Source of the DNA: an uncultured Chitinophagales bacterium
Lineage (GTDB): Bacteria; Bacteroidota; Bacteroidia; Chitinophagales; Chitinophagaceae
Direction of reading: 5' to 3'
Length of the DNA stretch: 15,923 nucleotides
Assembly (NCBI GenBank): GCA_946886475.1
Contig: CAMPIQ010000083.1
Coordinates: 1-15,923, forward strand
Below are positions 1,556 through 12,245 of this stretch, piece after piece. Positions within the stretch are counted from its first letter, which is position 1, and each line of letters opens with the position of its first letter. The notes below the pieces were generated by a model. The model was not told the origin of the DNA, made no database searches, and saw only the letters and a list, made by a program, of their open reading frames with translations. Made by a program: the position numbers and the translations under genes.

Positions 1556-2908
1556 ATGGGAAGAAAATTATTATTAGATAAAGCACACATAGAAGGCATC
1601 CGGTACTATGATACTTACCGGAAAAATGGCGGTTATGCCGCTATGGAAAAAGCATTTAAAATGCCGCCGGCAGATGTGATAGAAGAAGTAAAGAAAAGTG
1701 GATTGCGCGGAAGAGGTGGCGCTGGTTTTCCAACAGGTATGAAATGGAGTTTTCTGGCAAAGCCGGAAGGTGTTCCCCGTTACCTGGTGTGCAACGCCGA
1801 CGAATCTGAGCCCGGTACGTTCAAAGACCGTTATCTGATGGAGTTCCTTCCTCATTTGTTTGTTGAAGGACTGATCATTTCATCTTATGCTCTTGGCGCC
1901 AATACCTGTTATATCTACATACGTGGCGAATATGCCTGGATCCCCGATATTCTTGAGCAGGCGATCACTGAAGCAAAAAATGCAGGCTGGCTTGGAAAAA
2001 ATATATTAGGCAGTGGCTTTGATCTTGAAATATACGTGCATCGCGGTGCAGGGGCCTACATCTGCGGGGAAGAAACTGCCTTATTGGAATCGCTCGAAGG
2101 TAAACGCGGCAACCCAAGGATCAAACCTCCATTCCCGGCCGTAAAGGGATTGTATGATTGCCCTACAGTGGTAAATAATGTTGAAACCCTTGCCGCTATA
2201 GTTCCTATTATCAATATTGGCGGAGAGGAATATGCGAAGATTGGAATTGGTAAATCAACGGGCACCAAACTGATCTCAGCCTGTGGTAATATCAACAGGC
2301 CAGGGGTGTATGAAATTGATATGACCATTTCCGTTGAAGAGTTTTTGTATAGTGAAGAATACTGCGGTGGCATTGCCAATGGAAAAAGGCTAAAGGCCTG
2401 CATCCCCGGTGGCTCTTCAGTGCCAATTGTTCCTGCCAGCCTTTTATTGAAAACGGCAAAAGGTGAGCAAAGGATGATGACCTATGAAAGCCTTGCTGAC
2501 GGCGGCTTTCAAACAGGAACCATGATGGGGTCGGGTGGATTTATTGTTCTGGATGAAGACCAGTGCGTGGTGCGTCACACCTTAACGCTGGCCACTTTTT
2601 ATCGACATGAAAGTTGCGGCCAGTGTTCACCCTGCAGGGAAGGAACAGGATGGATGGAAAAGATCCTTCACAATATTGAATATGGCAAAGGCAAAATGAG
2701 TGATATTGATTTATTGTGGGATATACAAAGCAAGATCGAAGGCAATACCATTTGTCCGTTAGGAGATGCGGCTGCATGGCCTGTAGCAGCAGCCATCCGG
2801 CATTTCCGTGATGAATTTGAATGGCATGTATTAAATCCGGACGAAGCACAGAAGAGAAATTTTGGATTGGGGAATTATGCGGATCCGCTGGGAGTGGCGG
2901 TGGGTTAA
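1556..2908 (+). CDS. nuoF: NADH-quinone oxidoreductase subunit F (NuoF, 51 kDa NADH/FMN subunit)
   Basis: NuoF oxidises NADH, takes the electrons on FMN and passes them to the [4Fe-4S] cluster N3. The 450-residue length matches the family (445 in E. coli). The glycine-rich FMN/NADH segment GRGGAGFPTG is at 52-61, the NADH-binding CNADESEPGTFKDR at 79-92, and GAGAYICGEETALLESLEG at 164-182. The SLBB-like region follows, with CIPGGSS at 282-288. The N3 ligands are C354, C357 and C360 (SCGQCSPCREG) and C400 (TICPLGD). The start ATG at 1556 has an AAGGGA just upstream. The gene is complete. Its 3' neighbour nuoG is separated by about 440 bases that hold a degraded inserted gene. Confidence 0.98.
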   Translation: MGRKLLLDKAHIEGIRYYDTYRKNGGYAAMEKAFKMPPADVIEEVKKSGLRGRGGAGFPTGMKWSFLAKPEGVPRYLVCNADESEPGTFKDRYLMEFLPHLFVEGLIISSYALGANTCYIYIRGEYAWIPDILEQAITEAKNAGWLGKNILGSGFDLEIYVHRGAGAYICGEETALLESLEGKRGNPRIKPPFPAVKGLYDCPTVVNNVETLAAIVPIINIGGEEYAKIGIGKSTGTKLISACGNINRPGVYEIDMTISVEEFLYSEEYCGGIANGKRLKACIPGGSSVPIVPASLLLKTAKGEQRMMTYESLADGGFQTGTMMGSGGFIVLDEDQCVVRHTLTLATFYRHESCGQCSPCREGTGWMEKILHNIEYGKGKMSDIDLLWDIQSKIEGNTICPLGDAAAWPVAAAIRHFRDEFEWHVLNPDEAQKRNFGLGNYADPLGVAVG

Positions 2909-2951
2909 TTCAAAATTCAAAAATGGAAAATAAAAAATGGAAAATGAAAAA
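2909..2951 (+). repeat. Left heptad arm of the nuoF-nuoG insertion
   Basis: Directly after the nuoF stop codon come six A-rich 7-base units starting at 2909, 2916, 2923, 2930, 2937 and 2944: TTCAAAA twice, then units of the form ATnnAAA or ATnAAAA. Bases 2920-2951 are complementary to 3315-3346: 28 of 32 positions pair by Watson-Crick rules and 2 more by G-U. The arms would form a long stem enclosing the four-helix-bundle pseudogene. The likely ancestral start codon of that gene (ATG at 2923) lies inside this arm. Confidence 0.8.
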
Positions 2952-3314
2952 GACAAGCGGTTGATGATCCGGAAAAACCTTATAGGATAGGACATCGGTG
3001 CTTTCTTTTTTCAAGGGAATTAATATGGTTCATGGCCTCCTGTAAGTATGAGCGTATTCATTTTTCGATCTTGATCAATTAGTAAGAAGTGGCACTTCAA
3101 TAGGTGCAAATGTAGCAGGGGGTGGATCAGGAAGTAGTAAAAAGGATTTTATCAATTCCTGCAAATCGCACTCAAATCAGCCAGTGAAACAAAATATTGG
3201 CTTTGCCTGATCAGGGATTGTATTGAAGTTGATAAAAATAAATTGGAAGAATTATTAAAAGAGTCAAATGAAATATCAAAGATCATAGCCAGGGTCATTT
3301 TGAATGCCAGGTGA
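2923..3314 (+). pseudogene. Decayed four-helix-bundle protein gene (23S rRNA intervening-sequence protein family)
   Basis: The remains are recognisable as the four-helix-bundle/23S rRNA-IVP family (Pfam PF05635). From 3076 one frame reads QLVRSGTSIGANVAGG, the family hallmark, and continues to SSKKDFIN at 3156. A one-base deletion near 3156-3157 then shifts the frame, after which FLQIALKSASETKYWLCLI and the C-terminal helix follow to the stop TGA at 3312-3314. Upstream, helix-1-like sequence (DRTSVLSF from 2986, CKYERI from 3041) is spread over different frames with stops at 2962-2964 and 3043-3045. An ATG at 2923 in the heptad arm would give the lysine-rich start MENKKWKMKK, like other Bacteroidota members; this start is inferred. 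The usual GANVAEG has become GANVAGG. Living members form small oligomers of unclear function. The copy is enclosed exactly by inverted heptad arms. Confidence 0.85.
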
Positions 3315-3349
3315 TTTTTTATTTTTCATTTTTCATTTTACATTTTACC
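3315..3349 (+). repeat. Right heptad arm of the nuoF-nuoG insertion
   Basis: Five consecutive T-rich 7-base units start at 3315, 3322, 3329, 3336 and 3343: TTTTTTA, TTTTTCA twice, TTTTACA, TTTTACC. They begin directly after the pseudogene stop codon (3312-3314) and end exactly at the GTG start of nuoG (3350). The arm is the inverted partner of 2920-2951. The AU-rich stem with no following T-run does not look like a rho-independent terminator. Confidence 0.8.
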
Positions 3350-4516
3350 GTGGAAGAAAAAAAACTATTCAAAGTAACCATCGATAACATCACCATAGAT
3401 GTGGAGCCTGGAACCACTGTGCTCCAGGCAGCCAGGATGATTGGTGGGGATGTTGTGCCGCCTGCCATGTGTTACTACAGCAAATTAAAACACACAGGCG
3501 GGTATTGCCGTACATGTCTTGTAAAGGTTGCAGCAGGATCCACTGCCGATCCACGGCCCATGCCAAAGCTGGTTGCCAGTTGCCGTACTGCGGTAATGGA
3601 TGGAATGATCGTTGAAAATATTACCAACCCTGCCGTGCTTGAAGCAAGAAAAGGTGTGGTTGAATTCCTGTTGATCAATCATCCGCTTGACTGTCCCGTG
3701 TGCGACCAGGCAGGAGAATGTGATCTGCAGGATCTCAGCTATGAACATGGCACCGAAGGCACACGGTATGAATTTAAACGCCGCACTTTCGAACGCATAG
3801 ATATTGGTCCATTGATCCAGTTGCATATGACGCGTTGCATACTTTGTTACCGTTGTGTACATACCGCCAACCAGGTGGCAGGAAACAGGGAACATGGAGT
3901 ACTCGACAGGGGTGATCACGCACAGATTGCAACCTATATTCAGGAATCGCTCGACAGTGAATTTATAGGGAATGTAATTGATGTTTGTCCGGTTGGAGCG
4001 CTTACCGACAGAACTTTCCGGTTTAAGAACAGGGTGTGGTTTACAAAGCCAATGGAAGCACACCGCGATTGTGCTACGTGTAAGGGAAAAGTGAGATTAT
4101 GGTTGCGCGGTGATGACGTGCTAAGGGTAACAGCAAGAAAAGACCAGTGGGGTGAAGTGGAGGAGTGGATCTGTAACGAATGCAGGTTTGAGAAAAAGAA
4201 AGTGAGCGACTGGGTAATAGAAGGTCCAACACGGGTTGCCAGGCATTCTGTAATTGGGCAGGGACATTATACCAATATCACCAAACCAAAAGAAACCATT
4301 TCAGATGTAATGGGAGGACGTAAACCCAAACTGCTGATGGATATTCACCAGGTTAGCGAGGTTAATTCCGTTGATCTTAACAAGATCAAAGGGCCGGCCA
4401 CCGGAAAAACCTTTAATGGTGATCCAACTGCAGAGGGCAGAAATATTACCGATGAAAAAGAAGGATTCGGCAGAAACATGGCAGGAACGGATTCGACCAA
4501 TGCAAATACACCCTGA
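3350..4516 (+). CDS. nuoG: NADH-quinone oxidoreductase subunit G, short Bacteroidota form (iron-sulfur protein)
   Basis: NuoG carries the iron-sulfur chain from NuoF towards NuoB/NuoI. I place the start at GTG 3350: the open frame reaches GTG 3311, but that part only translates the T-rich heptad array, while VEEKKLFKVTID fits the family start. The protein has 388 residues. The [2Fe-2S] N1b ligands are C41, C53, C56 and C78. N5 is H111, C115, C118 and C124 (HPLDCPVCDQAGEC). N4 is C163, C166, C169 and C213. A further Cys set, C241/C244 and C275/C278, lies where N7 would be, but the classical third Cys of C-x2-C-x3-C is absent. The large molybdopterin-like domain of E. coli NuoG (about 900 residues in total) is missing, as in other Bacteroidota. 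The last 65 or so residues are polar and low in complexity. Confidence 0.95.
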   Translation: MEEKKLFKVTIDNITIDVEPGTTVLQAARMIGGDVVPPAMCYYSKLKHTGGYCRTCLVKVAAGSTADPRPMPKLVASCRTAVMDGMIVENITNPAVLEARKGVVEFLLINHPLDCPVCDQAGECDLQDLSYEHGTEGTRYEFKRRTFERIDIGPLIQLHMTRCILCYRCVHTANQVAGNREHGVLDRGDHAQIATYIQESLDSEFIGNVIDVCPVGALTDRTFRFKNRVWFTKPMEAHRDCATCKGKVRLWLRGDDVLRVTARKDQWGEVEEWICNECRFEKKKVSDWVIEGPTRVARHSVIGQGHYTNITKPKETISDVMGGRKPKLLMDIHQVSEVNSVDLNKIKGPATGKTFNGDPTAEGRNITDEKEGFGRNMAGTDSTNANTP

Positions 4517-4610
4517 GAAGTAAAAATTTAAAATGAAAAATTGAAAACAGACCCGATTTTTCGTTTTAAATTTTCCATTTTTCATTTTGACTATTGAATT
4601 TTGAATTTAT
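4517..4610 (+). repeat. Heptad-repeat hairpin between nuoG and nuoH
   Basis: The whole gap is a heptad element. 4523-4541 pairs with 4556-4574 over 19 bp (18 Watson-Crick pairs and one G-U at 4534/4563), leaving a 14-base loop at 4542-4555. On the right, seven consecutive 7-base units start at 4557, 4564, 4571, 4578, 4585, 4592 and 4599, nearly all beginning TTTT. Five bases later comes the nuoH ATG. The stem is almost pure A/T and has no T-run after it, so it is unlikely to be an intrinsic terminator. mRNA processing or attenuation is possible but unproven. Confidence 0.75.
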
Positions 4611-6791: not shown

Positions 6792-6796
6792 AAAAT

Positions 6797-6852
6797 GCTT
6801 TGAGCTGTGAGCTGCGAGGTCAGCCCACAGCTCAAAGCTCAAAGCTCAAAAT
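6797..6852 (+). repeat. Heptad-repeat hairpin between nuoJ and nuoK
   Basis: Eight 7-base units occupy exactly 56 bases and end at the nuoK ATG (6853). Three units of the form GCTnnGA (6797, 6804, 6811) are followed by units in inverted orientation, including TCAAAGC at 6832 and 6839. Bases 6797-6809 and 6826-6838 form a perfect 13-bp stem. After one A-C mismatch, GCTG (6811-6814) pairs with CAGC (6821-6824), leaving a 6-base loop. This is the most GC-rich and probably the most stable hairpin of the series. No T-run follows, so it could attenuate, stabilise or provide a processing site rather than terminate. Confidence 0.8.
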
Positions 6853-7182
6853 ATGCCCATAAACTATTACATATTTCTATCCATCGCCTTATTTGTTATA
6901 GGCATTATTGGCGTGCTTACACGGCGCAATGCCATCATTGTATTCATGTGTATAGAACTGATGTTGAATGCAGTGAATCTGTTACTTGTTGCATTTTCAA
7001 AAATGCACCATTTTGCCAATTCCTCCAGGGATATCACGGCAGGCAGCGATGGGCAGTTATTTGTTTTTTTTATCATGGTTGTGGCAGCGGCGGAAGTAAG
7101 CGTCGGACTCGCGATCATAGTAATGCTTTACAGGAATACACATTCAGTGGACATTAATTTTTTGAACAGGTTGAAACACTAA
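6853..7182 (+). CDS. nuoK: NADH-quinone oxidoreductase subunit K (NuoK membrane subunit)
   Basis: NuoK is a small Mrp-type membrane subunit of complex I. The 109-residue protein (100 in E. coli) has three hydrophobic segments, at about 5-22, 28-50 and 68-92. The two membrane-buried glutamates needed for proton translocation are present: E35 in [13 protein letters not shown] and E81 in [13 protein letters not shown]. The loop between segments 2 and 3 ([17 protein letters not shown]) is slightly long, as in other Bacteroidota. The ATG abuts the last unit of the heptad array, with no Shine-Dalgarno site. Confidence 0.98.
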
Positions 7183-7265
7183 AAAGTAAAAATTAAAAAT
7201 TTAGTACCGGTTGTACTTTTTTCATTTTGACTTTTGATTTTTGACTTTGCATTTGACTTTGAAGA
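7181..7265 (+). repeat. Heptad-repeat element between nuoK and nuoL
   Basis: The left side has three A-rich units at 7181, 7188 and 7195 (AAAAAGT, AAAAATT twice), the first overlapping the nuoK stop codon. AGTAC (7203-7207) and GTACT (7213-7217) form a small central stem. On the right, units TTTTTCA, TTTTGAC, TTTTGAT and TTTTGAC start at 7218, 7225, 7232 and 7239, followed by 6-base units up to 7263. The left and right arms pair imperfectly, about 16 of 19 positions with a small bulge. The right arm shares an exact 15-mer with 15-29 and 4578-4592. Confidence 0.7.
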
Positions 7266-12077: not shown

Positions 12078-12091
12078 AATAATATTGGGAT

Positions 12092-12214
12092 AGTTCTTAG
12101 TTCATAGTAGAGTTCAAAGTTCAAAATCGGTGCACTTTATTTATATAGTGGTGTCATTTATCTGAATGATCTCTGCCAGGAAATGTTTTGAACTTTGAAC
12201 TTTGAACTCTGAAC
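12092..12214 (+). repeat. Heptad inverted repeat with 59-base loop, downstream of nuoN
   Basis: The left arm has AGTTC motifs at 12092, 12099, 12111 and 12118 (spacing 7, 12, 7; one 5-base unit, AGTAG, interrupts the series). The right arm has GAAC at 12190, 12197, 12204 and 12211, exactly every 7 bases. 12111-12126 and 12186-12201 form a perfect 16-bp stem. The 59-base loop (12127-12185) shows no ORF or known motif. The layout is that of the nuoF-nuoG insertion but with a short, empty loop. It fills most of the 168-base gap before the permease gene. Confidence 0.75.
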
Positions 12215-12230
12215 GAATCAAGTAACTTTA
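12201..12230 (+). promoter_or_regulatory. Candidate promoter of the ABC permease gene
   Basis: TTTG (12201-12204) and TAACTTTA (12223-12230) are separated by 18 bases and resemble the Bacteroidota -33/-7 pair TTTG and TAnnTTTG (seven of eight at -7). TCCGGCC follows, similar to the sequence often found at starts in this phylum. The -33 element would be part of a heptad unit in the right arm. The leader before the ATG at 12246 would be under 15 bases. Confidence 0.4.
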
Positions 12231-12245
12231 TCCGGCCTGTTTTAT

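Follow-up and report, generated by a model that had tools for sequence, protein, structure and literature searches.

The PF05635 family (23S_rRNA_IVP) encompasses four-helix-bundle proteins in which, to our knowledge, no catalytic site is known. MITEs and insertion sequences are short, harbor terminal inverted repeats and have gene-less copies, and complementary heptads are found in a cyanobacterial tRNA-Leu intron. The 23S rRNA intervening sequence (IVS) described in the available part of PMC4990558 is 428 nt long and has a 28-bp stem, a sense ORF of the PF05635 type (S23p) and cleavage by RNase III. REPIN/RAYT systems, or REPtrons, consist, in the accessible portions of PMC3116915 and PMC8266576, of a gene located beside its cognate repeats together with gene-less inverted doublets spread through extragenic DNA. 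Intergenic tandem heptamers of the word TAACTGA are reported for the Beggiatoaceae, Cyanobacteria and some Bacteroidetes in the text available from PMC4679880. No description of heptad arms around PF05635 genes was found in the literature covered, outside of which most subscription journals fall.

The window, by which we mean the whole 15,923-nt stretch of DNA analysed here, contains a nuo operon. Between nuoF (1556..2908, with 80 relatives at 80-91% identity) and nuoG (3350..4516, with Fer2, NADH-G and Fer4_Nqo3 domains and a GTG start assigned by homology), both on the forward strand, lies a feature composed of a left arm, a decayed gene and a right arm, all likewise on that strand. The left arm (2909..2951) is built of the heptads AATTCAA, AAAATGG and AAAATGA, whilst the right arm (3315..3349), built of ATTTTTC and ATTTTAC, runs up to the start codon of nuoG. 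The sequence-only reading had seen inverted heptad arms here, and these are borne out: the left core, 2920-2951, pairs with 3315-3346 over 32 nt, 28 of which (88%) are complementary, and in a longer register 2903-2938 pairs with 3314-3349 at 81%. The match of the left arm to its own right arm scores 22.0. When the upstream flank of the window was compared with 180 foreign PF05635 downstream flanks this score was reached once, and in the reverse comparison, of the window downstream flank with foreign upstream flanks, it was again reached once, so that the match is more than the mere sharing of common A+T heptads.

The enclosed sequence, 2937..3314, is indeed a decayed gene for a four-helix-bundle protein, as had been claimed, with matches to Pfam PF05635 in two frames (2.6e-11 and 4.1e-5). 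An HMM built in this work traces it through three frames (columns 3-39, 37-69 and 60-119) and thus over columns 3-119 overall, from which it follows that the gene is nearly whole with at least two frame breaks. With stops masked the window copy passes the curated PF05635/TIGR02436 cut-off, at 44.1 bits against 33.8; the intact relative L026 scores 84.3 bits against a curated cut-off of 24, and the solved structure found for the L026 protein is one chain, 2rld, of an uncharacterized protein. The stop codon, TGA at 3312-3314, abuts the right arm, and the likely start, ATG at 2937, is located within the left arm, as is the start of the intact relative L025. The outer limits of the two arms are the stop codon of nuoF (2906-2908) and the start codon of nuoG (GTG 3350). 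These positions of stop, start and arms had been pointed out in the sequence-only reading.

Three further junctions in the window, absent from that reading, bear inverted heptads without an ORF. These are a hairpin between nuoG and nuoH (4517..4610; score 17.5, 14-nt loop), one of the word TCAAAGC between nuoJ and nuoK (6792..6852; score 15.5, 13-nt loop) and one of the word TTTGAAC 3' of nuoN (12078..12245; score 18.0, 59-nt loop). Two heptad arrays of opposite polarity also lie between nuoK and nuoL (7180..7262), with a fold-back score of 12.0 that falls below the census threshold of 13. No strand is assigned to any of these four features, and the names nuoH to nuoN are those that we presume by eye from the protein sequences. 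Upstream, between nuoE and nuoF, are two small genes unlike complex I subunits (535-966 and 1018-1425), whose products we take to resemble SnoaL/DUF4440-type and glyoxalase-type proteins, respectively.

Relatives of this region were fetched by means of nuoF, and among the best 80 genome loci both nuoF and nuoG could be read in 77. By HMM, seven of these junctions contain PF05635, as an ORF or a remnant, between arms of the heptad type (L024, a remnant, and L025, L026, L034, L056, L061 and L065), in inserts of 437-494 nt. A GxxExxY (PDDEXK) ORF or remnant, mostly with a non-heptad kind of arm, is present in 15 of the 77, that of L043 being a remnant, and a decayed DUF559 ORF is found in one (L027). 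Another 46 junctions are empty, with a gap of at most 168 nt and no match to PF05635, GxxExxY or DUF559; where such a gap measures at least 30 nt, no inverted match scoring at least 11 was found. Arm scores of at least 15 are reached by five of the six scored PF05635 copies, L061 having 14.5, and by 10 of 14 GxxExxY copies. It had been reasoned that arms present in relatives without the gene would speak against a joint element, and none of the 54 junctions free of PF05635, GxxExxY and DUF559 keeps both heptad arms. Among these 54, arms of the GxxExxY type occur in L044 without an ORF match, a lone right arm in each of L030 and L040, and larger genes in five: a nucleotidyltransferase/HEPN pair in L002 and a similar ATPase gene in L021, L023, L032 and L042, identified as AAA_15 by a scan of L023 only.

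In some relatives the gap between nuoF and nuoG is just 0-15 nt, and the insert therefore occupies exactly the space that separates stop codon and start codon. Several of the empty junctions are of this length and are too diverged to reveal a target-site duplication; no strain-level insertion was seen among the loci compared. The PF05635 copies of this junction fall in one clade of seven, which includes the nuoK|nuoL copies of L030 and L061 (support 0.81). The gap seems to be an insertion hotspot, and GxxExxY genes (TIGR04256, PF13366) with their own non-heptad inverted arms occupy it in L001, L020, L029, L045, L075 and others.

The association of arms with PF05635 genes extends well beyond this junction. 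The first sample comprised 38 genomes searched, 30 of them with PF05635, and the phylum sample 118 genomes, 90 with PF05635; in both, the fetched loci are the best-scoring among the matches listed, and the enrichment figures exclude elements whose flanks were too short or were duplicates. Within these limits, 98 of 180 Bacteroidota PF05635 genes, the best-scoring among the matches listed, have self-matching inverted arms with a score of at least 15, leaving 82 without arms at this threshold, and when the flanks are restricted to strictly non-coding DNA arms are retained at 87 of the 180. Dinucleotide-shuffled flanks reach the threshold once in 900. Arms are found at 59 of 81 Chitinophagaceae loci, against 22 of 1200 mismatched loci, and at 39 of 99 loci of the phylum sample, against 11 of 1476. 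Other ORFs in the same loci have them in 15 of 1088 cases (268 ORFs near an element being set aside), and mismatched arms from the same genome match in 3 of 242. Inverted heptad arrays hence flank PF05635 genes far more often than other ORFs, which is the enrichment that had been foreseen. Most of the fetched genes are intact, since at 167 of 180 loci an open frame extends over at least 100 of the 120 model columns.

The arms of this family have a grammar of their own. Self-identity of PF05635 arms at lags of 7, 14 and 21 is 0.68, 0.66 and 0.63, against 0.22-0.38 at lags other than multiples of 7; for lag 7 the phylum sample yields a lower identity, 0.51. In 48 arms chosen for their periodicity, the right-arm heptads obey a loose rule, approximately TWYHRAC, with A or G and then C in final position. 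Of 98 right arms, 77 are richer in C than in G, 18 are richer in G and three have equal numbers. The same lag comparison found no 7-base period in the arms of GxxExxY or DUF559. Arms accompany 35 of 58 GxxExxY loci, with the sequences CGCAAAGGCGCTAAG, ACCACAGAG or CTGAACC...GATTT, and a GxxExxY arm pattern has matches in 12 of 28 genomes, 10 of the 21 with a GxxExxY match and two of the seven without. Short DUF559 frames have arms in 8 of 17 cases, often C-rich and CCCCTAACCCC-like. Open frames for MetH, LeuRS, CinA (twice) and GcpE (L142, L145, L146, L148 and L149, at the locus centres) were also seen to contain in-frame DUF559 domains, as if DUF559 genes could insert into proteins without breaking the frame. 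In the genomes under study, Y1_Tnp matches with long non-heptad inverted arms (L385, L387, L391, L394 and L398) form REPtron-like loci.

The heptad word varies from locus to locus and yet tracks the lineage of the PF05635 protein. The test of this relation used the 127 of 180 PF05635 rows scoring at least 13, required unlike flanks and treated every nuo-region pair as orthologous. At a protein identity of at least 60%, 9 of 30 non-orthologous pairs have common arms, where permutation gives a mean of 0.52 and a maximum of 5 (0 of 2000 as high), and the other 21 related pairs do not; at 55% or more, 16 of 97 pairs share arms (permuted mean 1.7, highest 7). A looser count of 16 of 37 pairs was discarded in favor of the stricter 9 of 30 because some nuo-region pairs had been scored as non-orthologous. 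GxxExxY arms also track their protein lineage, with 15 of 37 pairs against a permuted mean of 2.5 and a maximum of 9.

Individual cases illustrate the relation. Proteins L098, L186 and L104, which are 74-79% identical and come from three genomes, have the common word CATGAAC; their neighbors are, respectively, UbiA and RuvX, a MoxR-type AAA protein and DUF58, and RapZ_C and a nucleotidyl transferase. The DNA match between L098 and L186 spans from arm to arm and ends there. Conversely, L171 and L178, which come from different genomes, are each flanked by argC (TIGR01850, above cut-off) and an argD-family gene (an acetylornithine-type aminotransferase, with argD TIGR00707 as best model, below cut-off), and their words differ. 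The tree places L171 with L089, and with L247 (0.96), and L178 with L180 (0.92), L089 and L180 being located elsewhere; as L171, L178 and their kin all belong to one 14-tip clade (support 0.875), these lineages are distinct but not remote.

Since the arms are enriched at PF05635 genes and the word tracks the protein lineage, arms and gene behave as one unit. At the level of sequence comparison, the earlier proposal of a single element that can settle between different genes finds good support in the lineage-linked words at unrelated sites; such comparison establishes the behavior as a unit, the intergenic and usually sense placement, and the occurrence of kin proteins with kin words at unrelated places. 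Co-inheritance of the protein and the word is no proof of binding. Concerted evolution of the arms was also considered and rejected; the first test gave 106 of 127 pairs, but its arms had been picked by their within-element match. An unbiased test found no excess of within-element arm identity for PF05635 (at 60-70% protein identity, 14.6 against 16.3 between elements, p 0.32), and above 70% the between-element arm score is the higher. For GxxExxY at 60-70% the same test gives a modest within-element excess (75 of 116, p 6e-5).

Hairpins of this kind are also found without the gene. A census of 511 junctions in the window and the best 80 loci identified 81 with inverted arms scoring at least 13, against 3 after base shuffling. 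Heptad arms account for 48 of the 81 calls, and 8 of these hold a PF05635 ORF. Once an N run (L044), the decayed window copy and the L024 remnant are removed from the remaining 40, there are 37 heptad hairpins with no trace of PF05635, most with loops of 8-25 nt and up to 7 with AATTTGAAA-like units.

Three PF05635 words, picked from strong arms, were then counted in 28 of the 38 genomes, as overlapping matches within arrays, so that sites are fewer than matches. The word GAATTAT has 242 matches in its own genome, G011, one in G034 and none in the 26 others. One word each was counted from G016 and G032, which have 13 and 12 PF05635 genes; TACTSAC has 264 matches in G016, the genome of Sediminibacterium goheungense DSM 28323 that contains L026, and 0-3 in each of 27 others. 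GATTSAC has 15 matches in its PF05635 genome, G032, and is not exclusive to it because G007 (24), G017 (5) and G019 (2) match as well. A decoy degenerate word taken from no arm gave scattered matches, at most 16 per genome. Judged by these counts, two of the three words have multiplied almost only in the genome of their PF05635 element, and, where the copies were examined, as gene-less hairpins. In 20 stretches of G016 there are 25 word clusters, 24 of them intergenic; 21 are inverted, all with one polarity, and 4 are single. Their neighbors are oriented -- in 8 cases, +- in 7, ++ in 6 and -+ in 2, with two clusters at edges. Two stretches of G011, a genome with one PF05635 match, were read whole and contain long arrays that point in opposite directions, between which the annotation shows no PF05635 gene. 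The word arrays of G007 are mostly single-sided. Nested elements occur at L365, L367 and L368, where a hairpin of one word has arrays of another in its loop (about 12 copies of TGTCCAT in L365). A satellite-like arrangement occurs at 820-1340 of L342, in G011, where four units in tandem, each roughly 80 bp in size and each bearing right-arm heptads, come after a long left array.

The feature in the window is probably a decayed small mobile element made of a left heptad arm, a PF05635 gene and a right heptad arm, and this we regard as the best explanation, with a copying role for the protein included in it by inference. Among Chitinophagaceae PF05635 ORFs, 69 of 80 lie in sense between co-directional genes, with 5 antisense, 6 mixed and one more at an edge; for GxxExxY ORFs the figures are 45 of 53, with 1 antisense, 7 mixed and five at edges, both sets resting on crude gene calls. 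Sense placement is consistent with expression from the host transcript, and the PF05635 protein would be made from the operon mRNA. It may then bind hairpins that carry its own word, in either DNA or RNA form, and aid the copying of its own element and of the gene-less hairpins, by analogy with the service that the RAYT is thought to render to REPINs. The element itself would not encode the enzyme that cuts and copies, which could be one of the host's; no catalytic partner was found for the element. Insertions would survive only in the gap that separates a stop codon from a start codon, and RNase III may limit their harm by cutting the hairpin in mRNA. The window copy, its gene lost to frame breaks, should be inert.

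Other explanations have to be weighed against this mobile element. The anatomy resembles that of the 23S IVS in the available part of PMC4990558, and the sense orientation of 69 of 80 ORFs would also suit a classical IVS, in which the arms form an mRNA hairpin for excision by RNase III and a 23S-type IVS has moved to mRNA. However, mismatches in PF05635 arms display no excess of G.U over A.C (63 against 82), so that upkeep of the arms at the RNA level is unsupported; in GxxExxY arms the counts are 56 and 59. None of 244 element loci matches 23S rRNA (blastn against E. coli 23S at 1e-10, in a set without a positive control), and hairpins of the same word are also located at convergent gene ends, in 7 of 25 clusters. 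Although the arms of the window are paired in the minimum-energy structure, as the sequence-only reading would have it, the fold is no more stable than shuffled sequence (z -0.94, with 18 of 100 shuffles as good). What stands of the RNase III and intervening-sequence proposal is thus the anatomy, while excision as the cause of the arms does not gain support, and we consider the classical IVS unlikely. A retroelement, in which PF05635 acts like Avd and a reverse transcriptase copies the hairpin RNA into DNA, would draw on the resemblance of the family to Avd, required for DGR retrohoming in the portion of PMC10053308 available, and on the sense bias of the ORFs. It appears very unlikely given that G016 has no RVT_1 match despite its 13 PF05635 genes and 264 word matches, and that 18 of the 31 genomes searched are in all without an RVT_1 match.

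That a RAYT, a Y1 transposase, spreads the heptad hairpins, with PF05635 a passenger captured in the loop, is very unlikely. The layout is like that of REPIN/RAYT as far as the accessible portions of PMC3116915 and PMC8266576 describe it, and there are four Y1_Tnp matches in G016, of which three fall under the curated cut-off; yet no such match is present in G011 or G007, possibly incomplete genomes in which words have multiplied, and in each of 21 Y1_Tnp loci any one of the three words matches at most twice. On these two results the RAYT was rejected as a general driver. The strong-armed Y1_Tnp loci bear other, non-heptad arms, and words specific to a lineage are not expected of a passenger. 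We give a similarly slight chance to local slippage and inversion as the source of the heptad arrays, with PF05635 genes as ordinary host genes that are there by chance. Heptad hairpins are common here, with 37 free of PF05635 among 511 nuo-region junctions. Against a local origin are the low rate at which mismatched arms of the same genome match (3 of 242), the common arms of same-lineage elements at unrelated places, the multiplication of single words within a genome (242 and 264 matches), the close relatives with empty junctions, the criss-crossed words and kinships at argC|argD and the DNA match between L098 and L186 that extends from arm to arm.

If the mobile-element reading holds, PF05635, hitherto a 23S intervening-sequence protein of unknown role, gains a testable job in the recognition of its own hairpins. 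The 59 of 81 Chitinophagaceae copies with matched inverted arms, mostly heptads, and a word that tracks the protein would offer a source for the heptad hairpins in the gene gaps of these genomes and suggest a REPIN-like system that lacks a transposase; in Bacteroidota, selfish elements would then often occupy the intergenic gaps of operons. More tentatively, this could be transposase-free mobile DNA, in which a four-helix-bundle protein without catalytic activity recognises hairpins that carry its own word and recruits host enzymes for the copying, each genome being colonised by its own words, with GxxExxY and DUF559 as parallel systems that compete for operon gaps.

In comparison with the known systems, the element has the protein family, the approximate length, the hairpin arms and the sense ORF of the 23S IVS, as far as the available part of PMC4990558 allows the comparison, but it lies between protein genes, its arms are heptads and it has gene-less copies of the same word. 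It mirrors REPIN/RAYT in its inverted extragenic doublets of one word, multiplied within a genome, and may do so in the pairing of word and protein, which the lineage test favors while one of the three words counted recurs in three further genomes; here, however, the protein is PF05635 rather than a Y1 (HUH) transposase and the arms are tandem heptads. Avd is described as similar to PF05635 in sequence and structure (PMC10053308, portion available), although G016 is without an RVT_1 match. The TAACTGA repeats, in the text available from PMC4679880, repeat a single word in direct orientation, mostly 5' of start codons, with one inverted case reported, and do not form inverted arms that enclose a gene. 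Like MITEs and insertion sequences, the element is short, with terminal inverted repeats and gene-less copies; unlike them, it has no transposase, the ORF between its arms being PF05635, and its arm sequence varies by lineage. We file it neither as REPIN/RAYT nor as IVS, because it would work like the former, looks like the latter and fails a defining feature of each.
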